Of a DNA stretch of 64,000 nucleotides, positions 904-61,785 are shown piece by piece (position 1 is the first letter of the stretch; the number at the start of each line of letters is the position of its first letter). The stretch is from Verrucomicrobiota bacterium (GTDB lineage Bacteria > Verrucomicrobiota > Kiritimatiellia > SS1-B-03-39 > UBA6053), in contig JAFIGD010000023.1 in assembly GCA_020831625.1 (NCBI GenBank), positions 1-64,000 of the forward strand. Reading direction: 5' to 3'. The position numbers were made by a program, and so were the translations under genes. The notes beneath the pieces were generated by a model that was not told the origin of the DNA, searched no databases, and was given only the letters and a program-made list of their open reading frames with translations.

Positions 904-1440
904 TCAGCCCATCAAACCGCTGAGGATCAGCAGCGCGCTCACACTCAGACCCAGCACGGCCAGGCCCCGGACGCGGAGCGGGTCCGCGAACATCCAGTGA
1001 ACACCCCGCTTCCACAGATGCGGATACACCGCGAACACCATGGCTTTGATCATGACCACATAGACCAGAATCCCCAGCACCCAGGAGGGGAATCCCTGCC
1101 AGCGGACCGCCACCAGAACCGGGTTCCCCGCCAGCAGCAACAGACAGCACAGCGCCCGCACCGCGAGCAAATCCGGGATGAAGGTGACAATCAGATACCA
1201 GCCAACCGGCACCGCGATGAACAGCAGATTTTTGAGCACCGAGAAGCCCCCGAAATCCACCATCCACAGGTTGCGCGCGAACCAGACCAGGCAGACCGCA
1301 GTCAACACCTGCGCCGGCAGCTTCATGCGGGGATACGCCATGAGCGCCTCCCGGACAAAATCCGGCTTGGTGAGCAGAAACAGATTGTCCAGCAGAACCA
1401 GCACCCCGAACAGAATGGCGACATTTGAGGCATTAATCAT
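904..1440 (-). CDS. Hypothetical multi-pass membrane protein
   Basis: I do not recognise this family. The 178-residue product is mostly hydrophobic, with about five membrane-spanning stretches (roughly 5-25, 42-60, 66-88, 92-112, 118-138) and a last one at 157-176 near the C-terminus. There are no obvious catalytic motifs. It lies between a TPR-like membrane protein upstream and the phosphopantetheinyl transferase, whose GTG start follows its stop by five bases, so the two are probably co-translated. That coupling is the only hint of function. Confidence 0.7.
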   Translation of the reverse strand: MINASNVAILFGVLVLLDNLFLLTKPDFVREALMAYPRMKLPAQVLTAVCLVWFARNLWMVDFGGFSVLKNLLFIAVPVGWYLIVTFIPDLLAVRALCCLLLLAGNPVLVAVRWQGFPSWVLGILVYVVMIKAMVFAVYPHLWKRGVHWMFADPLRVRGLAVLGLSVSALLILSGLMG

Positions 1441-3983: not shown

Positions 3984-4751
3984 TTATCCAAACATCGCCG
4001 CGGCGTCGTCCACCGCCTCCGGTAGAATCGTCTGCACATCCCCCTCCAGACGCAGCGCCACATGCGGCAGTCCGTCGTGCGCGGTTTCCCCCTGATTGAT
4101 GATCAGGTACGGGATTCCGGCGCGGGCGGCCATGAGCGGGAAGGTCGCCGCCGGCTGCACCGCCAGGGTGCTGCCCACGGCGATAACCAGGTCCGGATCC
4201 GCCATCGCCCGCTGCGCCCGCACCAAATCCTCCTCCCGCAGCGTCTCCCCGAACTGGATCACGCCGGGCTTGAGCACATGCTGACAGTGCGGACAATCCG
4301 GCACGATACCGCTTTTCCGGTAATCGTCATACCACCGCTCCGCGGCATCGGAAAAACCGCATTCGATGCACACCACCCGGTCATTGCAGCCGTGCAGTTC
4401 CACCAGCCGGTCCGGCCTAATGCCCGCGCGGCGGTGAAGGCCGTCAATGTTCTGGGTAATCACCGCGTGCAGTTTTCCGAGATCCTGCAGTTTCGTCAGC
4501 GCCCGGTGGGCGGGCGTGGGTTCCGCCGCGCCCCACTGGAAAAAGTCCTCACCCTTGTGCCGCCAGTAGTCCCGCTGTTTTTCGGGATCGGTCAAGTAGG
4601 TGTTCAGGTCGATTTGCGGACGGGTTTTCCAGATGCCTTCGGGCCCCCGGTAGTCGGGAATCCCCGCCCCGGTGCTGATGCCGGCCCCGGTGAACACCAC
4701 GATGCGTTCGGCCGCGACCAAATATTCCAGGAGTGTTGAGGGTTCGTTCAT
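3984..4751 (-). CDS. NAD-dependent protein deacylase, SIR2 family
   Basis: Sirtuins remove acyl groups from lysines while consuming NAD. The 255-residue protein shows GAGISTGAGIPDYRG (about 21-35, NAD binding), TQNIDGLHRRAG (about 99-110) with the catalytic His in the following ELHGC, and a four-cysteine zinc site (CIEC and CPHC). The length and order match bacterial CobB-type enzymes. Its start lies three bases after the stop of the radical SAM activase gene, so both are in one transcript. Whether it is a deacetylase, desuccinylase or another deacylase cannot be told here. Confidence 0.9.
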   Translation of the reverse strand: MNEPSTLLEYLVAAERIVVFTGAGISTGAGIPDYRGPEGIWKTRPQIDLNTYLTDPEKQRDYWRHKGEDFFQWGAAEPTPAHRALTKLQDLGKLHAVITQNIDGLHRRAGIRPDRLVELHGCNDRVVCIECGFSDAAERWYDDYRKSGIVPDCPHCQHVLKPGVIQFGETLREEDLVRAQRAMADPDLVIAVGSTLAVQPAATFPLMAARAGIPYLIINQGETAHDGLPHVALRLEGDVQTILPEAVDDAAAMFG

Positions 4752-6087: not shown

Positions 6088-6915
6088 TTACTCAACGGGT
6101 TCCCAAAAGACCTCATTCGCCGACGCCTCGACCAGCCGCCAGGCCCGCGGGGGCGAAGTGGGCGCATTGATCTGACCGTTCATGCGGATCATCTGGTGGT
6201 CGACGATTACATAGGTTCCCAGCCGACCGCTGCCGACCCCGGAAATATTAAAGCGGGGCGGCGGATAGCGCATATCCGTGGAGATGTTCCGGAACCCGGC
6301 CATTTCCGCGAGCTGCTTCGCGTCCACGGACACATGGTCCTCTACCCGGATGGGATTGGAGCCTTCCCGCGAGGAGCGCACCCAAATGCCTTCCGTGGAG
6401 GACGGCTCCGGTTCGGGATCCGCCTCCGGAGGCACTGAGTCCTCCCGCTCCACACGCTCCACGGGCTCCACGGGCTCCTCAACCGGCTCGGGCGAAGCCT
6501 CCAAGGGGGCCGCAACGTCATCAACCGGCGGCCCGTCTTTCACCAGTGCCTCGGGCGGATCCGCGGCGGGATTCTTCACCGGGGGCGCGGTTCCGACCGG
6601 GTCCTGAGCCGCGGTTGCGTTTCCGGATGACTCCACGTCGGGCATGAGCCCCATCAATTCGAGGTCACTCAGTTGATCCTTCCGGGCCGACACCGTCTCC
6701 GTGAGCCGGTCATGATTGGTTTCACCCATCACCGAACGGCCGGGAATCCGTGCGGATTCCGGCTCCAGACCGATGAGAAGCAGATCGTCTTCGGTGTTCC
6801 GTCCGCCCTCCCCCCGGGAGAGACGGGAATACACCTGAAAGCCGGCGACTCCGACCAGAACGGTCAGAATCACCAAATCGAGAATCTTCTTTTTAGCAGG
6901 GGGTGCGTTGGACAT
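6088..6915 (-). CDS. Single-pass protein with proline/glutamate-rich linker
   Basis: The 275-residue product has a short cytoplasmic start, one membrane helix (about 12-28), a long Pro/Glu/Val-rich disordered linker (about 90-175) and a compact C-terminal domain (about 178-275). The C-terminal stretch TYVIVDHQMIRMNGQI... is reminiscent of the small beta domains of type II secretion/type IV pilus proteins of the GspB/GspC/PilP kind, but the similarity is only by eye. No other secretion genes are near. A promoter directly upstream suggests an mRNA with almost no leader. Confidence 0.6.
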   Translation of the reverse strand: MSNAPPAKKKILDLVILTVLVGVAGFQVYSRLSRGEGGRNTEDDLLLIGLEPESARIPGRSVMGETNHDRLTETVSARKDQLSDLELMGLMPDVESSGNATAAQDPVGTAPPVKNPAADPPEALVKDGPPVDDVAAPLEASPEPVEEPVEPVERVEREDSVPPEADPEPEPSSTEGIWVRSSREGSNPIRVEDHVSVDAKQLAEMAGFRNISTDMRYPPPRFNISGVGSGRLGTYVIVDHQMIRMNGQINAPTSPPRAWRLVEASANEVFWEPVE

Positions 6916-6924
6916 CTTGCTTAC

Positions 6925-6953
6925 ACTATGCGGTTCAAATCGACGGGATGCAA
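6925..6953 (-). promoter_or_regulatory. Putative sigma70-type promoter for the 6915 gene
   Basis: TTGCAT, a 17-base spacer and CATAGT are seen on the minus strand. The -10 hexamer ends nine bases before the ATG at 6915, and no clear ribosome-binding sequence intervenes. The transcript would have virtually no leader. Confidence 0.4.
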
Positions 6954-8416: not shown

Positions 8417-9480
8417 CCCTCGAGGAACTGCTCGATCATCCCTGCGCCTGGTTCGTGGATCACGCCTGCGGAGAAATCGCCATCTCCTCGCGAATCCGCC
8501 TCGCCCGCAATGTCGCCGGCGTCCCCTTCCCCACCCGCGCCAGCGGCGCCCAGAAAAACGAAATCCGGCAGGAAATCCTGACCGTGCTGCGGGAGACCGA
8601 TCCGTTTGACTCCGGCCTTCTGGCGTCCACCGAGGAGATTTCCCCCTTTCAACGGCAACTGCTCTTCGAACGCAGCCTCATCAGCCGCGAGCATGCGGAA
8701 CTCGACGAGGGCGGAGCCATCGCCGTCAGCCGCGACGAACAGGATGTGGTCATGGTCAATGAGGAGGATCACCTCCGCCTTCAGGTGGTCCGTTCCGGTT
8801 TGAGCCTCCACGAAACCTGGGAGGAAATGACCCGGCTGGATGATGCGATCGACGACAAAATCGACTACGCCTTCGCCGAGCCCTACGGCTTTCTGACCTG
8901 CTGCCCCAGCAACACCGGCACCGGGATGCGGGCCGGGGTGATGCTGCATCTTCCCGGACTCGCGCTCATGGAGGAAATCCGCCCGGTCATGCGGGGCCTC
9001 GCCAAAATGGGCCTCGCCGTCCGCGGCCTGGGCGGCGAAGGCAGCGAGGCGGACGGATTTCTCTTTCAGATTTCCAACCAGATCACCCTCGGCAAAGCGG
9101 AGGAGGACATCCTCGACGATCTCAACGAAATCGTGGCCGAACTCATTCAGCACGAAGTTCACGCCCGCGCCCGCCTGGCCGAAAACCGTCCCAACGGACT
9201 GCGCGACAAAATCGGCCGCGCCGCCGGCGTGCTGCAAAACGCCTGGGAACTTCAGTCAAAAGAGGCTCTTGATCTGCTCTCGCTCGTCCGGCTGGGCGTG
9301 GCCATGGATCTGCTCAAACTGGACACACCCCATGTGATTGAGCAGCTGATGATTGAAGTTCGCCCTTGCCATCTGCAAAAATTAGCCGAAAAAGAGCTGA
9401 ATCCCGCTGAACGGGACAGATTTCGCGCCGAGTGGGTGCGATCAAAGCTTGCCGATTTATCAAAAGGACCTAAACTGTAA
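8413..9480 (+). CDS. mcsB: Protein-arginine kinase
   Basis: McsB phosphorylates arginines on misfolded proteins, which marks them for ClpC. The 355-residue protein is a phosphagen-kinase-fold enzyme: SSRIRLARNV (25-34), NEEDHLR (116-122), the essential Cys164 in CCPSNTGTGMR, and GEGSEADGF (about 208-216). It has the C-terminal helical part typical of McsB rather than of creatine kinases, including HARARL. It is followed three bases later by clpC, so kinase and unfoldase are made together. No ctsR gene is present in the operon, unlike Bacillus. Confidence 0.92.
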   Translation: MTLEELLDHPCAWFVDHACGEIAISSRIRLARNVAGVPFPTRASGAQKNEIRQEILTVLRETDPFDSGLLASTEEISPFQRQLLFERSLISREHAELDEGGAIAVSRDEQDVVMVNEEDHLRLQVVRSGLSLHETWEEMTRLDDAIDDKIDYAFAEPYGFLTCCPSNTGTGMRAGVMLHLPGLALMEEIRPVMRGLAKMGLAVRGLGGEGSEADGFLFQISNQITLGKAEEDILDDLNEIVAELIQHEVHARARLAENRPNGLRDKIGRAAGVLQNAWELQSKEALDLLSLVRLGVAMDLLKLDTPHVIEQLMIEVRPCHLQKLAEKELNPAERDRFRAEWVRSKLADLSKGPKL

Positions 9481-9483
9481 CTC

Positions 9484-11942
<2,459 letters not shown>

Positions 11943-11946
<4 letters not shown>

Positions 11947-23546: not shown

Positions 23547-24120
23547 GGATTTCCCGGAGGGCGAAATAGAGCTTGCGGGACACCCAGGCGTCTGTGGCCG
23601 CGTACGTGATCTGTTTGGGCTCCAGCGTTTTCGCCGCCCAGTTGGACACCTGCGCGGATTTGCTGATGCGGCCGTTGAGCAGCAGTGCCGTGAGCGGGCG
23701 GAGCCCGGTGTTTTTAAATCCGCGCTTTTCCGCCATGTGCCCGACATCCGCAAAGCCCGCGGCCTTGAAGGGATGCAGCTCCTGCAGTTCTTTCACATCC
23801 CGCGAAACCGCCGCCCCGCACTTGAGGATTTCCCGGCGCGCAAGAATCTCAAACAGTGCGCCCAGTTCGCTCAATTGCCGGATCTGAAACAGCCAGACAT
23901 GCGACTCGCCCGCGAGTTGCAATAAACTGGGCAGATACGACTCGCCTTTGCGAAAGGCCGGACGCGTCTCGGTGTCGAATCCCAGCACCGTTTCCCGGCT
24001 CAGATCCTCCAAGACCGTTTTCAGCCCGCTGTCATCCGACACCAAGGTGACCGGACCCTCATATTCCAACAGGGACTTTTGATTGATTTCCGCCTTCGAG
24101 ATAGAGTATGAGTACGTCAT
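23497..24120 (-). CDS. RNase D-like 3'-5' exonuclease domain protein
   Basis: DEDD exonucleases of this type trim RNA or act on DNA ends. The 207-residue protein has VLGFDTETRPAFRKG (ExoI, about 49-63), a conserved middle with CGAAVSRDVKEL (ExoII) and YAATDAWVSRKLY (ExoIII, DX3D in a Tyr-lacking form). It consists only of the exonuclease domain, without the HRDC domains of RNase D. The last dozen residues (EWGVTSDEWGVTNGE) and the stop codon are encoded by the CGTCACTC repeat, so the tail is an acquired addition. The ATG at 24120 overlaps the divergent start of the lipoprotein gene. Confidence 0.85.
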   Translation of the reverse strand: MTYSYSISKAEINQKSLLEYEGPVTLVSDDSGLKTVLEDLSRETVLGFDTETRPAFRKGESYLPSLLQLAGESHVWLFQIRQLSELGALFEILARREILKCGAAVSRDVKELQELHPFKAAGFADVGHMAEKRGFKNTGLRPLTALLLNGRISKSAQVSNWAAKTLEPKQITYAATDAWVSRKLYFALREIPEWGVTSDEWGVTNGE

Positions 24121-24643
24121 GAAAAAATTCCCTGCCCTTTTTTTCGCCCGCTTGCAACACCCGACCCGGATTTTCGGGCTTTTCATTCCGCTTTTGCTCC
24201 TTCAGGCCTGTGTCAGCACCGGCTCCGGAACCCCCGCCGCGCCGATTCTCCCGCCGGGATACGCCGTGTTCGACATGCCCGGTGTCTATTCCGACGGCAT
24301 GGCCCGGATTGAAACCATACCGCGCGGCGCCCGCATTCAGCTTCTGGAAACGTTCGAAGGCTCCTTCGAACTGCATGCCCGCGGAAGCGACCGCGTGGTG
24401 ATCCGCAACGACGCGATGGGCTATCCCGGCCTGAACCGCTCCTTCAGCGGCGAGGGCGTTCTAGTCGAGGACGGCCGGGCGGAGGGCGAAGCCGAAATCT
24501 GGATCCGCATGGCCGGTCCGGTCCGGCGCGATCACCGCAAAGCCGCCTGGAGCCTCCGCCCCGCGACCTCACAGGAAATCGAACGCCACGAAAACCGGCT
24601 GCGGCAGCTGGAGGAGCGCAAACGCCGCGCGGGCATGCTCTGA
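24119..24643 (+). CDS. Lipoprotein of unknown function
   Basis: The 174-residue product has a long signal sequence ending in the lipobox LLQAC (Cys about 31) and a small beta-rich body of about 110 residues, then a charged helical tail (about 150-174, many Arg/Glu). No enzymatic motif is visible. It should be anchored in the inner or outer membrane. Its ATG shares the CATG at 24118-24121 with the divergent exonuclease start, so each gene's promoter must lie inside the other gene. The endonuclease III gene converges on it from the right, four bases beyond its stop. Confidence 0.7.
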   Translation: MKKFPALFFARLQHPTRIFGLFIPLLLLQACVSTGSGTPAAPILPPGYAVFDMPGVYSDGMARIETIPRGARIQLLETFEGSFELHARGSDRVVIRNDAMGYPGLNRSFSGEGVLVEDGRAEGEAEIWIRMAGPVRRDHRKAAWSLRPATSQEIERHENRLRQLEERKRRAGML

Positions 24644-25284: not shown

Positions 25285-27033
25285 TTATTCCGGGGCGACC
25301 ATCCAGCGGTTCCGGTCCGCCAGCATCACCTGCTCGCCGTTGCGGATCGGAAAGCCGAAGGTGAGCGGGAAACCGCGCGGCAGTTGCGTCAGATCCATGA
25401 TCGGCCGCCAACTGCGGAAAGGTCCGCGGGTCAGATCGGAATGATACCGTTTGTCGCGGCTGAGGGTGGTGAAATAGAGACCGTGTACCGGATGAATGGA
25501 GTCGTTCACGCGGAAAAAGTCCTCCAGATCCAGCGGCAGATAGAGGGAGGTCACATCCCCGTACCAGGCGGTGGCCCAGGGCATATCCGAGACCATCAGC
25601 TCCCCCGGCTCGAACGGCGAGGACACCAGACCGATATCGCGGGCCATATACGGCGGATAGCTCCAGGGACGGGGCGGCATGATCGTGAACAGCATCGGCA
25701 GCGCCTGCAGGAAGATGAACAGGCCGATGACCGACATCGACACAATCCGCACCCCGATCTGCATCCGGTCCAGAAGGATGTAAAAGAACGCGGAGGCGAA
25801 CAGCACCACGACCGGCAGGAACATCTGCGCCACCGGGAGCAGCTCATCACCGAACACCCCCGCGACCGCGGCGAACAGCGCCAGGGAAAGCAGGATTCCC
25901 CAGCGGAGAATCCGGGTCACCGGACGCTGGAACCGGTAAAAGTACGTTGTGAAAAAGAGACAGACCGACAGCCCGGCGCTGAAGCCGAGCGCGCTGAGAT
26001 TCAACAGCGAGGGGACCGTCTGCACAAACCGGGCCTGAACCATTCGCCGCAGGTCAAACTCGCTTAAATCCAGCGCCAGAGAGCGCAGGAACACATCGTT
26101 GGGTTCGCGGAGAATCGTGTAGCCCGCGAGACCGAACGGCGTGCCCGACACACTCAGGTTGCGGAGAATCCATGGCGCAAACATCCCCGCCGCCACCGCC
26201 AGCACCGCCACCGCCGGCAGCCAGCCTTTGGGGCCGCAGCCCAGCCACAACACCAGAATAAACCCCGGCAGCATCGGCCAGGCCCCATAGCGGGTGAGCG
26301 GCAGCCCGCCCATGCACACCGCGCCGATCAGCACCGGAATCCAAAATCCCGCGCCCTTCAGGTTCGGCTCCTCCCCCTCCCGCCGCGCCGCGCGCAAGGC
26401 CATCAGCAGTGCCCAAATGCCCACCGACGATAAAAACACCAAAAACGAAATTTCCGTGCCCAGAATCGCGTGTTGCCAGACCGAATTGGACAGCAGAAAC
26501 ACCGTCGCCGCCGTCAGCGCCGTGCGGTGATCAAACAAAAGCCGCCCGCTCAAATACAAAAACAGTCCGGACAGAAAAGCGAAGAGCAGATTCAGCGGAA
26601 CGATCACCCACTGCTCCGGAGCGTATTTGTGGGAACTCGGAAGCGGAAACGAAGTGCGGAAGAGTTTGAACGCCCCGCCTAAAACCACCGGATAGGCGGG
26701 CGGATGCGTTAAATCCGGATGCTGATGAAAGTTGGGGCGCGCGCCGGCCTCGGTCTCCACCATCAGCCTCCCGTTTTCCCCCAGAAGCCAAAGCGAGGCC
26801 GGGCGCACAAACGAGGTGTTCAGCCGGTTGCTCCGCGCGAAATGACGCGCCACCTGGGCCTGATCCATCGCCCGCGCGTCCTTGAACCCCGAATACTGGG
26901 TGGCCACATACAGCACCGACAACAAAATCATAAACAGAACATACAGCAGGGTCTTCAACACATTGGCGCCAATGCCCACCTCCAGGGTGTACACCAGGTT
27001 CTGCACGCGCGAATCAAAAGGTCTGTTTGCCAT
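25285..27033 (-). CDS. Multi-pass membrane protein, GT39/ArnT-like glycosyltransferase family
   Basis: The 582-residue protein has about ten or more membrane helices and, in its first periplasmic loop, HQHPDLTHPPAYPVVL, which resembles the PMT/ArnT-type loop that binds polyprenyl-phosphate sugars. Such enzymes transfer sugars to lipids or proteins on the outer face of the inner membrane. The acidic catalytic residues cannot be fixed by eye. I use the ATG at 27033, which has TGGAG upstream, instead of the frame to 27096. It precedes nth by only four bases. Confidence 0.72.
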   Translation of the reverse strand: MANRPFDSRVQNLVYTLEVGIGANVLKTLLYVLFMILLSVLYVATQYSGFKDARAMDQAQVARHFARSNRLNTSFVRPASLWLLGENGRLMVETEAGARPNFHQHPDLTHPPAYPVVLGGAFKLFRTSFPLPSSHKYAPEQWVIVPLNLLFAFLSGLFLYLSGRLLFDHRTALTAATVFLLSNSVWQHAILGTEISFLVFLSSVGIWALLMALRAARREGEEPNLKGAGFWIPVLIGAVCMGGLPLTRYGAWPMLPGFILVLWLGCGPKGWLPAVAVLAVAAGMFAPWILRNLSVSGTPFGLAGYTILREPNDVFLRSLALDLSEFDLRRMVQARFVQTVPSLLNLSALGFSAGLSVCLFFTTYFYRFQRPVTRILRWGILLSLALFAAVAGVFGDELLPVAQMFLPVVVLFASAFFYILLDRMQIGVRIVSMSVIGLFIFLQALPMLFTIMPPRPWSYPPYMARDIGLVSSPFEPGELMVSDMPWATAWYGDVTSLYLPLDLEDFFRVNDSIHPVHGLYFTTLSRDKRYHSDLTRGPFRSWRPIMDLTQLPRGFPLTFGFPIRNGEQVMLADRNRWMVAPE

Positions 27034-50350: not shown

Positions 50351-50379
50351 TTGCGCAGACTCCATTCTCATGCTAGCCA
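50351..50379 (+). promoter_or_regulatory. Putative promoter for the DnaQ-like exonuclease gene
   Basis: TTGCGC, 17 bases and TAGCCA; the -10 ends seven bases before the ATG at 50387, without a ribosome-binding site between. Confidence 0.35.
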
Positions 50380-50386
50380 ACTCCCC

Positions 50387-50998
50387 ATGATAAATTTTGT
50401 CGCTTTTGATCTGGAAACCACCGGCATTCAACCCGATACCGATGCCATCGTTGAAATCGGAGCCGTTAAATTCATTGACGGCCTCCCGCAACCGCCTTTT
50501 TCCGCCTTGGTGAACCCCCAGCGGAAAATCCCCCCGGACGCGATCGCGGTTCACGGGATCACCGACGCCGAAGTCGCCGACAAGCCGCCGGTGCGGGATC
50601 ACATGGGACCACTCGCCGAATATTGCGGCGATCTGCCCATGGTGGCCCACAACGCCCGATTCGATTTCAAATTTCTCGAGGCCGCAGTGAAACGCGAAAA
50701 AACCAAAGCGCCAACCGGCGTGCTGCTCGACACCCACTCCTTGTCCAAAAAAGTCTTCCCCGGCCTCTTGAATTATCGTCTGGAAACCCTGACCAAGCAC
50801 TTTGAATTCCCCAACACTGTGTTCCACCGCGCCTATGAGGATGCGGAATACTGCGGACGGATTTTCCTCCGGATTCTGGAAACCCTGGAACGGAACCATC
50901 ACTCCACCTCGGTTGCGTCGCTGCTGGCCCTCTCCGAAATGAGAGAGATGCGGCTTCCGCAAATTGCGGTTCAAGCCGAACAACTCGGCCTTTTTTAG
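50387..50998 (+). CDS. DnaQ/DEDDh 3'-5' exonuclease (PolC/epsilon type)
   Basis: Proofreading or repair exonuclease. The 203-residue protein has NFVAFDLETTGIQPDTD (ExoI, about 3-18), VAHNARFDFKFL (ExoII) and AYEDAEYCGRI (ExoIII-epsilon, HX-type with upstream His). The domain fills most of the chain, and a C-terminal helical tail follows. It may be a stand-alone epsilon-like subunit or a DNA-repair exonuclease. I use the ATG at 50387; the longer frame starts inside the promoter. It is divergent from rex. Confidence 0.85.
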   Translation: MINFVAFDLETTGIQPDTDAIVEIGAVKFIDGLPQPPFSALVNPQRKIPPDAIAVHGITDAEVADKPPVRDHMGPLAEYCGDLPMVAHNARFDFKFLEAAVKREKTKAPTGVLLDTHSLSKKVFPGLLNYRLETLTKHFEFPNTVFHRAYEDAEYCGRIFLRILETLERNHHSTSVASLLALSEMREMRLPQIAVQAEQLGLF

Positions 50999-51010
50999 AC
51001 CCGTTCCCCC

Positions 51011-51038
51011 TTGATCCATCAAACTCCGGGGCTATAGT
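51011..51038 (+). promoter_or_regulatory. Putative promoter for the exosortase gene
   Basis: TTGATC, 16 bases and TATAGT; the -10 ends five bases before the ATG at 51044, without a Shine-Dalgarno sequence. The predicted mRNA begins at or near the start codon. Confidence 0.5.
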
Positions 51039-51043
51039 AAGCG

Positions 51044-52057
51044 ATGGACTCTCCGCAAAGCAATCTCTTCAATCCGGACCTTAAGCTTGCAACCCTTCGC
51101 AAAGGCGAACTGCTGAATCTGTTGATGGCCGCGGGATTGATCAGCATTTTTTTCCTGACCTTCCATTATTTCGGAAACTCTCAGGAAACACACGGTGTGT
51201 GGGGCCGGTCGGCGTTTCACTGGCTGACCTTCAGATGGTCTATCGGCAGTGTGTCGCTCGGTAACGGGGATTATTCACACGGGTATCTGATTCCGGCCTT
51301 TTCGGTTCTGGTCCTGTGGCTCAAACGCCACGAAATTCAGGCGGCCCCCAAAAAAGCGGCCCCGATCTTTATCGTGGCGATCATCGGCTCCCTTATTCTG
51401 CATTACCTGGGCCTCAAAACGCAACAGACTCGGATTTCGCTTTTCGGCATGATCGGCCTGCTCTGGAGCATCCCCGGCTATCTCTACGGCTGGAAGCTGG
51501 CATGGCTGATTCTCTTCCCCTGCGCGTTTCTAATTTTCGGAATTCCCCTTGAACTGTTCGAAAACATGACCCTTCCCCTGCGCTTCATCAACACCGAGGT
51601 CGCGGTCTCCGCCCTTCAGGGACTGGGCATCGAGGTACGCCAGGTCGGCACCGCAATTTACGGACCGCCCTTTGATGCCACCGCCGAATTGAAACTGGAC
51701 GTGGCCGACGCCTGCTCCGGGATCCGGTCGATCACCGCCATGACCGCCCTGGCAGCGGGATACGGATATCTGATGATGAACACCCTGTGGTCCAAATGGC
51801 TGATTTTCCTCTCCTCCATCCCCCTGGCCATGGTCGGCAACATGTTTCGAATTATTGCCATCGGCATTATTGCCGAAGCCTTCGGCACCGATGTTGCCGC
51901 CGGAGTAATCCACGATTATTCCGGATTTCTCGTCTTCGGCATGGCCATCGCCCTGATGGTCGCCCTGAGCACCCTGCTCAACCGGATTGACAGCCGTATT
52001 CTTGCCCGTTTCAACAAAATTGACCCGTCATGTCCCAGCGCCAACGCCAGTATCTAA
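51044..52057 (+). CDS. Exosortase
   Basis: Exosortases are inner-membrane transpeptidase-like enzymes that recognise PEP-CTERM-type tails of exported proteins. The 337-residue protein has about eight membrane helices, GDYSHGYLIPAFSVLVLW (about 75-92), the active-site Cys224 in ADACSGIRS with Arg228, Arg269 in NMFRI, and His290 in IHDYSGFLVF. All catalytic residues are kept. The EpsI gene begins 28 bases before its stop. No protein ending in a PEP-CTERM tail is encoded in the window. Confidence 0.92.
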   Translation: MDSPQSNLFNPDLKLATLRKGELLNLLMAAGLISIFFLTFHYFGNSQETHGVWGRSAFHWLTFRWSIGSVSLGNGDYSHGYLIPAFSVLVLWLKRHEIQAAPKKAAPIFIVAIIGSLILHYLGLKTQQTRISLFGMIGLLWSIPGYLYGWKLAWLILFPCAFLIFGIPLELFENMTLPLRFINTEVAVSALQGLGIEVRQVGTAIYGPPFDATAELKLDVADACSGIRSITAMTALAAGYGYLMMNTLWSKWLIFLSSIPLAMVGNMFRIIAIGIIAEAFGTDVAAGVIHDYSGFLVFGMAIALMVALSTLLNRIDSRILARFNKIDPSCPSANASI

Positions 52058-52821
52058 ACCTGTTTATTCTCTTCGGTGTCACCCTGCTGATGCTGGGGTT
52101 CACCGTGGATGTGACCGTCACCGACGAAGCCGGGGTCAAAACCGAACTGCCCCCGGAACTCGGGAGCCTCTGGACCGGTCACGAGGTGCTGTTTTGTCAC
52201 AATCAGGCCTGTATGCGCAGTTGGCTCACCAAGGACCTTGAGGCCAACGAAGACGGAATCTATGTCTGTAAAGAGGATTTCCGGGGCAACCGCTGCGGCA
52301 GCAAACTCCACCCCATGGCCTACGGAGAATGGCGCGCCCTCCCCCGCGACACCGTGATCTTTAAAAAACAATATTTTCACAACCAGGACGAAGACCAAAC
52401 GGTATACGCCGGCGTGGTGCTTTCCGGAAGCGACCGCTCGTCCATTCACCGCCCGGAAATGTGCATGCCCAGTCAGGGACATTCGATCGAATCCCGGGAA
52501 TTGATCGAAATCCCTTTGGAGGGCCGCGACCCGCTTCAAGTCATGATCCTGAATCTTTCCCGACGCCTGCCCAACGGTGTCATGTACTACAGCTATTATG
52601 CGTATTGGTTCGTCGGCCACAATGTCGAAACCCCTCACCACATGGAACGCATGCTGTTGATGGCCACCGACCGGATTTTCCGCAATATTTCCCATCGCTG
52701 GGCCTACATCTCGCTTTCGGGGCCCAAGGAGTCGGGTGATTCCCGCGAACATCACGACATCCTCCTCGAAGTGATTCCCCTGCTCTACCCGCAAATCAGC
52801 CTCATCTCCCCGGAAGCCTGA
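52030..52821 (+). CDS. EpsI-type exosortase-associated protein with a cysteine-rich insert
   Basis: EpsI-family proteins follow or are fused to exosortases and may be periplasmic processing partners. The 263-residue protein has an N-terminal membrane helix (about 8-27), the family signature HRPEMCMPSQGHSIESRE (about 147-164), and the beta-rich end. Near residues 56-89 it carries four cysteines spaced C-x4-C-x18-C-x8-C (FCHNQAC, YVC, NRC), which look like a zinc ribbon not usual for EpsI. It overlaps the exosortase gene by 28 bases. Confidence 0.85.
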   Translation: MSQRQRQYLNLFILFGVTLLMLGFTVDVTVTDEAGVKTELPPELGSLWTGHEVLFCHNQACMRSWLTKDLEANEDGIYVCKEDFRGNRCGSKLHPMAYGEWRALPRDTVIFKKQYFHNQDEDQTVYAGVVLSGSDRSSIHRPEMCMPSQGHSIESRELIEIPLEGRDPLQVMILNLSRRLPNGVMYYSYYAYWFVGHNVETPHHMERMLLMATDRIFRNISHRWAYISLSGPKESGDSREHHDILLEVIPLLYPQISLISPEA

Positions 52822-53392: not shown

Positions 53393-53421
53393 TTGCATTT
53401 CCAATAACCCTTCCCTAATTT
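53393..53421 (+). promoter_or_regulatory. Putative promoter for the FHA gene
   Basis: TTGCAT, 17 bases and TAATTT; six bases separate the -10 from the ATG at 53428, and no Shine-Dalgarno sequence is present. This is one of the clearest leaderless candidates. The promoter starts within a few bases of the gmhB stop. Confidence 0.5.
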
Positions 53422-53427
53422 AACTTT

Positions 53428-54045
53428 ATGAGCGATTCAACCACTACCGCCCGTCTTCATGTTCGTTACACAGATCCTAAAGGGAAACTCACCGAGCTGA
53501 TCCTCGGGGACAAACCCATCACGATCGGCCGCAGTCCCGACGCGGACATCATTACCCTCGACGAACGCGCCTCCCGCATGCACTGCGGTATCCGTATCTG
53601 GGACGGTGAATACTACGTCAAGGACCTTAAATCCAAAAACGGCACCTACTTAAACAACCAGCGGGTGGAAATGGCCAAGATCAAGCCCGGCGACAAAATC
53701 CGCCTCGGCAACACCATTTTAAATATTGACGATAAAAAAGCCCCCGGAACCGCCACCACCATGGACTCCGTTCAAAACGAGATGAACGAGGGCAAGGGCT
53801 ATAAAACCATTCTGCGCGAAATTGTCGAGAACACTGAAAAAGGCCCGCTGAAACCCAGCCTGGCTCCGAAAAACCCGACCCCGCCGCCGGGAGAATCCCG
53901 CCCCGCGGCATCCTCTTCCGGTGAGGTGAAAAGCAAGACCGCCAAGCTGGTCAGTCCGCCTCCTGAAGAAACCAAGCCCGCCGGCTCCGATTCCAAAATC
54001 ATGATGCGCAAGCCGCCCACCGCGATTAAAATCAAACGGAACTAA
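53428..54045 (+). CDS. FHA-domain protein
   Basis: FHA domains bind phosphothreonine peptides. The 205-residue protein has an FHA domain (about 10-105) with the ligand-binding residues in ITIGRSPDADI, ERASRMHCGI and KDLKSKNGTYLNNQRV. The rest (about 120-205) is proline-, lysine- and serine-rich, low in complexity and probably disordered. It may read signals from the Ser/Thr kinase-like protein at 16687, but they are far apart. It precedes the chlorite-dismutase-family gene by five bases. Confidence 0.9.
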   Translation: MSDSTTTARLHVRYTDPKGKLTELILGDKPITIGRSPDADIITLDERASRMHCGIRIWDGEYYVKDLKSKNGTYLNNQRVEMAKIKPGDKIRLGNTILNIDDKKAPGTATTMDSVQNEMNEGKGYKTILREIVENTEKGPLKPSLAPKNPTPPPGESRPAASSSGEVKSKTAKLVSPPPEETKPAGSDSKIMMRKPPTAIKIKRN

Positions 54046-57820: not shown

Positions 57821-57855
57821 AAAAACGGTCAAGCCCCCGGCTTGACCGTTTTTTT
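57821..57855. terminator. Bidirectional rho-independent terminator
   Basis: A perfect ten-base-pair stem, CGGTCAAGCC/GGCTTGACCG (57826-57848) with a CCC loop, is flanked by AAAAA on the left and TTTTTTT on the right. It lies between the convergent fasciclin and deaminase genes and can stop both transcripts. Confidence 0.9.
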
Positions 57856-58348
57856 ATCCTTTCGATTTTTTATCCAGCTTGATTGCCGCCGCGAACAGCG
57901 CGTCGCACTCGGCCTCAAGCACCCCGCCGATCAGCTCACAGGTCATTCCCCCCGCAGCCGCATTCACCACATCCTGCGCGCGCAAAGCGATATGACGATA
58001 GCCCAGATCCCGCAGCGACACCACCGAACTCCCGTACACCACCCGGGGAATTCCCGTCCAGAGGATTCCGGAAATGCACATCGGACACGGCTCGGCGGTC
58101 ACGTACAGCGTGCAGTCCTCCCAGCGAACATCCCCGCCCGCGCGGCGGACCGCCTCATGAATCACCTCCAGTTCACTGTGCGCGACCGGATTCCGATACG
58201 ACCGGTTCACCGCCTCCGCCAGAACCTCCCCCTCCCGACCGTCCACAAGCACCGCCCCGAAGGGCCTTTGCAAATTTTGACAGGCCACCTCCATGGTCCG
58301 ACGCATGTAGTTTTCGTGCTCGCAATGATCAGGATTGGATTCATTCAT
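57854..58348 (-). CDS. Nucleoside/tRNA deaminase-like protein
   Basis: The 164-residue CDA-fold zinc enzyme has the sequence VAHSELEVIH (about 71-80, His-Ser-Glu where His-Ala-Glu is usual) and AEPCPMCISG (zinc Cys pair), with FGAVLVDGREGE. It resembles guanine deaminase and TadA-type deaminases in the order of motifs; the target is not certain. I use the ATG at 58348. The stop codon is next to the bidirectional terminator. It is transcribed from the right. Confidence 0.85.
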   Translation of the reverse strand: MNESNPDHCEHENYMRRTMEVACQNLQRPFGAVLVDGREGEVLAEAVNRSYRNPVAHSELEVIHEAVRRAGGDVRWEDCTLYVTAEPCPMCISGILWTGIPRVVYGSSVVSLRDLGYRHIALRAQDVVNAAAGGMTCELIGGVLEAECDALFAAAIKLDKKSKG

Positions 58349-58396
58349 GTCTGCAAGAATACCGGAGCGCGGGGCAAAGTCCAAGAGCAAACAATT

Positions 58397-58804
58397 CTAA
58401 AATCCGTCCGACTCCCACCGCGGAACCAAACCCCGGATTTTCAAATTAAACGAAATCACCGTCGGGACCTCCCGCCCGCCGCTCCCGGTTTCCACCCGGA
58501 CACGCCCGTGCCATTCATCCACATCCCCGAAAGAACGCACCCGCCACGCCTCCCGCGGCGGAATGTCCACCGTCAGCCCCTGCCGCTCCGCCCGGGTCCG
58601 CACCGTGCGCTCCACCACGTCGTACTGGGCCGCGAAATCCACCTCGGCCCGCGGACGCCAGTTTTTGAGATATTGCCAGCCGAAAATCCCGCCCATCACC
58701 GCCACCAGCAGCAGGACCGGCGGTAAAAACGAAAAGCGTTCCAGGCCCCGCGAGGCCGCGCGGCCGGTGACACCGGTCGTGCCCGTTTTTTCATATTCTT
58801 TCAT
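58397..58804 (-). CDS. Hypothetical single-pass membrane protein
   Basis: The 135-residue protein has one membrane helix (about 27-46) and an extracytoplasmic domain of about 85 residues containing EVDFAAQYDVVERTVRTRAE and an aromatic end. I do not recognise the family. The ATG overlaps the stop of the metallo-hydrolase gene (ATGA), so the two are co-translated. Confidence 0.65.
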   Translation of the reverse strand: MKEYEKTGTTGVTGRAASRGLERFSFLPPVLLLVAVMGGIFGWQYLKNWRPRAEVDFAAQYDVVERTVRTRAERQGLTVDIPPREAWRVRSFGDVDEWHGRVRVETGSGGREVPTVISFNLKIRGLVPRWESDGF

Positions 58805-59598
58805 GGGTTTACCTCCAGGGTCCAGCAGGCGGAGGCCTCTGTCGGAGACGCCACCACCAGTTCAACATGCGAAAATCCCGCCCCGTCCAGCGCGCGGCGC
58901 AGCGTGCCCCGGGCCACATTCGGACAATTGCACTCCCGGCTCAAATGCGCCGCATAAACCCGCTGGAGTTCCGGCCCCGCCACCGCCAGCAGCACCTCCA
59001 CCGCCTGCTCGTTGGACAAATGCCCCTGCCGCCCCGCGATCCGCTGCTTCAACGACCACGGCCGCTGCGCCTCCTGCAGCAGCACATGATCATGATTCGT
59101 CTCCAACACCAGCACATGACACCCCTTTAGCTGCTGCTTGATCAGGTGCGTCGGCAAACCGATATCCGTGGCAAACCCGATCTTAACGTCCCGCCACCGA
59201 ACCACATACCCCACCGGATCAAACGCGTCGTGAGGAATACTGTAGGGCTCAAACAAAAGATCCCCTATCTCAAAGGGATGACCGTTGGTGAACACATGCC
59301 AATGCAGATCGCGGAATTTCGGATTGCGGGCCAGCGACTCCACCGTGCCCGCGTTCGCATACAGTTTTACCCCGTATTTGCGCTGCATCACCGGCAGGGC
59401 CTGAATGTGATCGCTGTGCTCATGGGTGATGCACACTCCGTCAACCTCCGCCAGACTTGTCCCCATCCCCTGCAAATGCGCCTCGATCCGCCGCGTGCTG
59501 ATCCCCGCGTCCATCAGCACCCGCGTGGTGTCTGTGGCGATAAAGGCGCAATTTCCGGTGCTTCCGCTGGCAAAGGTGCAAAGAGTGATCGAGGGCAT
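58801..59598 (-). CDS. MBL-fold metallo-hydrolase (WalJ/YycJ-like)
   Basis: The 265-residue protein has FASGSTGNCAFI near the start, HEHSDHIQALP (about 58-68) as the zinc HxHxDH motif, and LETNHDHVLL and HLSRECN later, typical of the YycJ/WalJ branch, which acts as a 5'-exonuclease-like hydrolase on DNA. It is the leading gene of a two-gene minus-strand unit. Other MBL hydrolases cannot be excluded. Confidence 0.88.
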   Translation of the reverse strand: MPSITLCTFASGSTGNCAFIATDTTRVLMDAGISTRRIEAHLQGMGTSLAEVDGVCITHEHSDHIQALPVMQRKYGVKLYANAGTVESLARNPKFRDLHWHVFTNGHPFEIGDLLFEPYSIPHDAFDPVGYVVRWRDVKIGFATDIGLPTHLIKQQLKGCHVLVLETNHDHVLLQEAQRPWSLKQRIAGRQGHLSNEQAVEVLLAVAGPELQRVYAAHLSRECNCPNVARGTLRRALDGAGFSHVELVVASPTEASACWTLEVNP

Positions 59599-59604
59599 CC
59601 GGTG

Positions 59605-59633
59605 GACATGCCCCAGCCACTCCCCTTTGGCAA
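59605..59633 (-). promoter_or_regulatory. Possible promoter for the metallo-hydrolase gene
   Basis: TTGCCA, 17 bases and CATGTC on the minus strand, six bases from the ATG at 59598. The -10 is a poor match, so this is weak. Confidence 0.25.

Positions 59634-59727: not shown

Positions 59728-61785
<2,058 letters not shown>

Follow-up and report, generated by a model that had tools for sequence, protein, structure and literature searches.

Complete Promoters Placed Next to Start Codons Predict Leaderless mRNAs in a Verrucomicrobiota Genome

Introduction

At five gene starts in a 64,000-nucleotide stretch of DNA from a Verrucomicrobiota bacterium, here called the window, a first-pass annotation described a -35/-10 promoter pair ending 5-9 bases before the ATG and no Shine-Dalgarno sequence. 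The question raised by this arrangement is whether transcription of these genes starts at the start codon itself, giving leaderless mRNAs, and whether the same geometry is a property of the genome and of its relatives.

Of the 953 bacterial genomes analysed by Zheng et al., 207 were predicted to contain leaderless genes, and the list includes no PVC phylum (PMC3160421); according to GeneMarkS-2 predictions, leaderless transcription is frequent in 21.6% of the bacterial species (PMC9581028). In Mycobacterium tuberculosis, 32 of the 37 toxin-antitoxin pairs with a primary transcription start site (TSS) are leaderless (PMC3898074). The first-pass annotation held such mRNAs to be little described in PVC bacteria, but they had already been reported there: in Akkermansia muciniphila, of the same phylum, about 10% of TSSs lie at annotated start codons by Cappable-seq (PMC4782308), and in Chlamydia pneumoniae dRNA-seq found 5 of 437 genes to be leaderless (PMC3333780). 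The kind is thus already known, this phylum included. No earlier phylum-wide survey of leaderless-placed promoters was found in the literature searched.

Sequences and Methods

The window is part of a 4.89-Mb draft genome of 111 contigs. The nearest named relatives of its LigA protein belong to 'PVC group bacterium' T3Sed10_339R1 (87%) and Verrucomicrobia bacterium UBA6053 (66%), and Verrucomicrobiota is the placement of UBA6053. No exact match to the canonical 16S 3' end GGATCACCTCCTT was found, the rRNA probably being missing from the assembly.

Motif statistics were obtained on a 0.93-Mb sample of this genome, containing 497 ATG genes, 315 of them with room for a promoter. Genes were called by a simple, home-made caller with a fourth-order codon model, in which the leaderless signal was ignored; its start-calling errors dilute and blur the positional signal. 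A -10 model fitted without removing genes with a Shine-Dalgarno sequence picked up AGGA instead, and it was replaced by a two-box promoter model from which such genes were removed and in which placement was free over 60 positions. This model was initialised from TTGACA/TATAAT, with a weak prior on both retained; the window was excluded from training, and 12,000 non-start ATGs served for calibration. The strict pattern was CTTGM-N2-N16/17-TANNNT-N6/7-ATG, the control being the same pattern with the ATG moved 9 bases. From each comparison genome 200 kb was sampled, which gives low power.

Promoters in the Window

The elements found at the five sites are listed below.

50351-50356, plus strand: -35 box TTGCGC of a 3'-5' exonuclease (RNase_T) gene, N17 spacer to TAGCCA
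50371-50379, plus strand: extended -10 box TGC-TAGCCA, a poor -10, 7 bases before the ATG at 50387
50387-50998, plus strand: 3'-5' exonuclease gene, mRNA start predicted at the ATG, Pfam RNase_T from residue 5
51011-51016, plus strand: -35 box TTGATC of an exosortase gene, N16 spacer to TATAGT
51033-51038, plus strand: -10 box TATAGT, 5 bases before the ATG at 51044
51044-52057, plus strand: exosortase (EpsH family) gene, Pfam PF09721
53393-53398, plus strand: -35 box TTGCAT of an FHA-domain gene, N17 spacer to TAATTT, strict-pattern match G000:C26:53392
53416-53421, plus strand: -10 box TAATTT, 6 bases before the ATG at 53428
53428-54045, plus strand: gene of an FHA-domain protein, Pfam FHA
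59747-59752, plus strand: -35 box TTGCCC of ligA, N16 spacer to TAAAAA
59769-59774, plus strand: -10 box TAAAAA, 7 bases before the ATG at 59782
59782-61785, plus strand: NAD-dependent DNA ligase gene ligA, Pfam DNA_ligase_aden and others
6948-6953, minus strand: -35-like box TTGCAT of the ORF starting at 6915, N17 spacer to CATAGT
6925-6930, minus strand: weak -10-like box CATAGT, 9 bases before the ATG at 6915

The sequences of the pairs are as first described and four of the five stand in the leaderless register, while that of the ORF at 6915, which has no Pfam match, is weak. GGAG, AGGA, GAGG and AAGG are absent from the Shine-Dalgarno position at all five, in agreement with the first description. 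With the window held out, the model gave p values of 0.0071 for 51044, 0.0012 for 53428, 0.0058 for 59782, 0.080 for 50387 and 0.12 for 6915, so that the first three are individually convincing. The proposal that TTGCAT is the preferred -35 box did not hold, as this hexamer makes up 3 of 78 TTG hexamers at the register versus 9 of 371 at control positions; the preference is for TTG[A/C]. Downstream of the second promoter, the exosortase gene is overlapped by a DUF3485 gene (51044-52821 together), DUF3485 being a typical partner of exosortases, and a PEP-CTERM protein is encoded in a sampled stretch of the same genome (L034:12336-12734).

The pairs might be chance matches, chosen by eye in an AT-rich intergenic background. 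Two of the five sites are individually non-significant, and a generic E. coli-type promoter scan of 45-62 kb stayed at background, with 4 sites (one of them 51044) versus 5.0 expected from shuffling. The question is therefore one of a fixed distance to start codons, not of the existence of hexamers.

When that distance was scored in the held-out window, 9 of 46 ATG starts reached p<0.01 versus 0.46 expected: those of 904-1440 (minus), 9484, 24119, 30212, 51044, 53428, 57854-58348 (minus), 58801-59598 (minus) and 59782. Six of the nine had been overlooked in the first-pass annotation. Promoters of four of them are given here.

9449-9483, plus strand: promoter TTGCCG-N16-TAAACT-N7 of a Clp AAA ATPase gene (9484-11946, Pfam AAA_2/Clp_N), p=0.0042
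24083-24118, plus strand: promoter of gene 24119-24643, p=0.006
58349-58384, minus strand: promoter TTGGAC-N17-TATTCT-N7 of gene 57854-58348, p=0.0056
59599-59633, minus strand: promoter TTGCCA-N17-CATGTC-N6 of gene 58801-59598, p=0.0029

The promoter of the Clp AAA ATPase gene is also a strict-pattern match (9448-9486), with a near-identical match in the congener G001 (contig C26). The genes 58801-59598 (minus) and 59782-61785 (plus) form a divergent pair, 183 bases apart, with a leaderless-register promoter ending at each ATG.

Genome-Wide Positional Signal

At the 315 ATG starts with room for a promoter, TTG was found 64 times at -37 to -34 versus 22.5 in control windows (P=8e-13), and TAnnnT 29 times at -13 to -11 versus 12 (P=2e-5), the peaks lying at -36/-35 and -12, respectively. 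The genome-wide TANNNT scan that the first-pass annotation had proposed as a check thus yields a -10 enrichment. No TTG peak was present at 4,481 internal Met codons or at 26,185 other ATGs; neither GTG/TTG starts (small numbers) gave a -35 peak nor did the reverse complement CAA. The complete pair TTG-N16..18-TAnnnT precedes 14 of 489 ATG starts and 53 of the 26,185 other ATGs. Over all TU-first genes TAnnnT alone gave little signal, which was exposed by the -35 peak.

The motif learned by the two-box model consists of a -35 box TTG[AC][AC]n, a modal spacer of 17 and a -10 box TATrnT, and is of the sigma-70 type; 33% of its mass falls on -10 boxes starting at -14 to -10, versus 8% if uniform. 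The genome does not follow the -10-only type of mycobacteria and Deinococcus, which has no conserved -35. Outside the window, 58 of 451 starts had p<0.01 (4.5 expected) and 99 had p<0.05 (22.6 expected), training starts included. The excess corresponds to some 12-17% of ATG genes. Overall, about 10-17% of the genes are estimated to carry a full promoter placed for a putative leaderless mRNA. In the complete genome the strict pattern has 43 matches, against 5 with the ATG moved 9 bases, and in the congener G001 it has 80 against 11. Among its 12 matches in the sample, 5 ATGs were called starts, and at least 5 of the rest belong to small genes missed by the caller.

Both genome-wide peaks, the excess of the strict pattern and the conservation in the genus described below stand against chance, which is refuted for the class as a whole and retains next to no probability; at 6915 it may still apply.

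Genes with the -35 box less often have a Shine-Dalgarno sequence (7/59 versus 79/243, P=0.0012). Among same-strand genes, the share with a -35 box at the register is highest where the intergenic gap is 40-60 bases (12/32), about the size of the promoter itself.

The promoters could also be real and the leaders very short (1-10 bases), translation then depending on an AT-rich or S1-type signal and not on true leaderless initiation. Such a reading can draw on the -10-to-ATG distance, which ranges from 5 to 9 bases, and on the poverty of some Verrucomicrobiota in Shine-Dalgarno sequences (PMC10783764); in the present genome these occur in 36% of ATG genes versus 13% background. With the modal arrangement, a -10 box that begins at -12 after a spacer of 17, transcription would nevertheless start on the A of the ATG. 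Moreover, C at -1 is enriched in TTG-bearing TU-first starts (54% versus 37% of the rest), as fits transcription from a pyrimidine-purine site; taken across every ATG start, the contrast shrinks to 50% versus 43%. Short leaders are accordingly considered unlikely as the general explanation. Since the -10-to-ATG spacing varies between 5 and 9 bases, some of the mRNAs may begin 1-4 bases ahead of the start codon, and it is to leaderless or nearly leaderless mRNAs that the data point.

Conservation in Orthologues

The register is kept at four of the five loci in all four genus members compared, while the spacers and the bases adjacent to the ATG have diverged. Upstream of these genes (exonuclease, exosortase, FHA and ligA), each of the three congeners has CTTG at positions -36 to -33 together with a -10-like box around -12, and several more distant members of the family keep the register too, notably for the exonuclease. 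The geometry at 6915 was found in this genome and in its closest relative, G002, only. The exonuclease TTG lies at -36/-35 in 4/4 genus members and at -37 to -34 in 9 of the 10 sequences scored, and CATGCTA is conserved in G001, G002 and G003. The exosortase register is conserved in the same three genomes. For the FHA gene, the -10 box reads TAAAGT in G001 and G003 and lies two bases more distant from the ATG, and the -10 boxes of ligA in G001, G002, G003 and G005 are TAAAAA, TATGAA or TATGAG.

These comparisons bear on the possibility that the start codons were wrongly assigned, the promoters being ordinary ones with real starts downstream and normal leaders. Start calling was imperfect and many ORFs contain further in-frame starts. 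The register is, however, tied to the ATG across orthologues, and a 9-base shift of the ATG abolishes the whole-genome excess. The exonuclease N-terminus MINFVAFDLETTG leaves no space for a later start: its motif begins at residue 4-8, right after the ATG, which excludes a downstream start, and LigA homology begins no more than 5-6 residues from the ATG. An upstream start or N-terminal extension is excluded where, as is often the case, the TAA or TAG of the -10 box is an in-frame stop; in addition, the TTG-to-ATG distance of the exonuclease gene is 36 here versus 35 in G001, so the intervening region is not a conserved reading frame. Wrong start codons are already largely refuted and are regarded as very improbable.

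Toxin-Antitoxin Operons

Half of the 12 strict matches in the sample belong to small genes that come first in a pair with a four-base overlap, the partner being of the PIN, PIN-like, Fic or ParE-like type. In this one genome sample, 103 small-gene pairs were chosen by geometry only, and toxin-antitoxin pairs were then defined by Pfam. Type II toxin-antitoxin pairs reached nominal p<0.01 in 13 of 16 cases, and in 11 of 16 after correction for several candidate starts, compared with 2 among the 86 other small pairs (P=2e-9); these may still include a few toxin-antitoxin pairs, as one-by-one scans covered some but not all of the 63 partner proteins. Compared with all ATG genes (58/451) the difference has P=8e-7. 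For three of the 16 pairs the family evidence is weaker; the stricter set gave 9 of 13 after correction (P=2e-8 versus the other small pairs). The first genes of 12 of the 16 pairs had not been called by the gene finder and were hence outside the training set. In a fourteenth pair (L005:15235), TTGACA-N17-TAAAAT lies nine bases upstream of the ATG. The sample thus holds about 16 type II toxin-antitoxin operons in 0.93 Mb, mostly with PIN toxins; stretches with such operons are L008, L015, L016, L023, L028, L033, L034, L039, L040, L044 and L050.

Inverted repeats with arms of at least 6 bases within the 38-40-base promoter-to-ATG stretch were found in 11 of the 43 strict matches (4.0 expected, maximum 10 in 300 shuffles), which suggests operators covering promoter and start codon together. 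At the toxin-antitoxin promoters inverted repeats did not reach significance: 4 of 16 had one, with an expectation of 1.3 and up to 5 in any of 300 shuffles.

The VapC protein encoded at L034:17310-17708 most resembles endonucleases specific for tRNA(fMet), with a match that falls short of the curated cut-off, and its partner is an antitoxin gene in the leaderless register. A VapC of the tRNA(fMet) type would attack the initiator tRNA, on which leaderless initiation depends.

Distribution in the Phylum

Over 115 genomes of the phylum, the ratio of strict-pattern matches to controls is 7.7 in the genus of the window and 7.5 in another genus of its family, compared with 3.0 for the remainder of the class and 1.9 for the other classes. 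Strong enrichment was found in the families f1, f25 (107 versus 20), f29 (612 versus 198) and f41, and the strict pattern in whole genomes showed none in f30, f34, f36 and f42. Across the phylum the signal reappears in one lineage after another, with sharp differences between families. Within the family of the window, the 200-kb sample of genome G008 had no clear peak.

In a matched pipeline E. coli had neither peak, and plasmid 1 of Deinococcus deserti was positive for the -10. Strict-pattern counts in whole outgroup genomes were 12 versus 6 and 24 versus 18 in two Geobacter, 11 versus 6 in Noviherbaspirillum and 10 versus 11 in Levilactobacillus, with ratios of 0.9 to 2. An enrichment in a Geobacterales pool was discarded, as it comprised only ligA loci, which are non-independent, and whole Geobacter genomes have at most a weak excess.

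Discussion

The positional signal is very probably due to complete housekeeping promoters giving leaderless or nearly leaderless mRNAs without a Shine-Dalgarno sequence. A sigma-70-type promoter of the form (c)TTG(a/c)nn - 16/17 - TAtrnT, with the -10 ending about 6 bases before the ATG, would direct RNA polymerase to start on the start-codon A or no more than about 3 bases away, and the ribosome would then recognise the 5'-terminal AUG directly. Leaderless transcription itself, that is the actual 5' ends, is a prediction from sequence, as are the sigma factor and the mode of translation.

The arrangement resembles that of M. tuberculosis in the -10 box (TANNNT) located 7-12 bases before the start codon, the missing Shine-Dalgarno sequence and the over-representation of toxin-antitoxin genes (PMC3898074). 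It differs in the -35 region, since M. tuberculosis has no conserved -35 motif (PMC3898074), whereas the -35 TTG is the strongest positional signal in the present genome. Deinococcus-Thermus likewise has the -10 box directly upstream of the ORF and leaderless expression (PMC12340547), which is predicted here; the Deinococcus signal is, however, mainly in the -10 (in the control, TAnnnT 12 versus 1.5 and TTG 6 versus 3.7, compared with TTG 64 versus 22.5 and TAnnnT 29 versus 12 here). Ordinary sigma-70 promoters of genes with leaders have the same -35 and -10 sequences and the 16-17 spacing; unlike these, the present set has a fixed distance to the ATG and no Shine-Dalgarno sequence. In Akkermansia leaderless TSSs were measured, while those considered here are deduced from the DNA, and the portion of that study used here contains neither a phylum survey nor a toxin-antitoxin link (PMC4782308). 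As far as the literature was searched, the apparently new features of these predicted leaderless promoters are their distribution through the phylum, a -35 box that makes them full promoters, their conservation at named genes and their enrichment at toxin-antitoxin operons.

It could further be proposed, as a speculation whose truth we rather doubt, that type II toxin-antitoxin operons are preferentially leaderless in both Actinobacteria and Verrucomicrobiota, and that direct initiation of the antitoxin at a 5'-AUG is a selected feature of the module. If true, possible benefits would be that the antitoxin is still made under stress, or that an autorepressor covers promoter and start codon together.

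The data extend an expression mode known mainly from Actinobacteria and Deinococcus to what would be a sizeable part of the Verrucomicrobiota, with the -35 box retained. Start-codon annotation in such genomes should use the leaderless signal, as most of the small antitoxin genes escaped a caller that ignored it. The link between leaderless placement and toxin-antitoxin operons, common to M. tuberculosis and the present genome, offers a testable case for a regulatory logic that may be shared by distant phyla.
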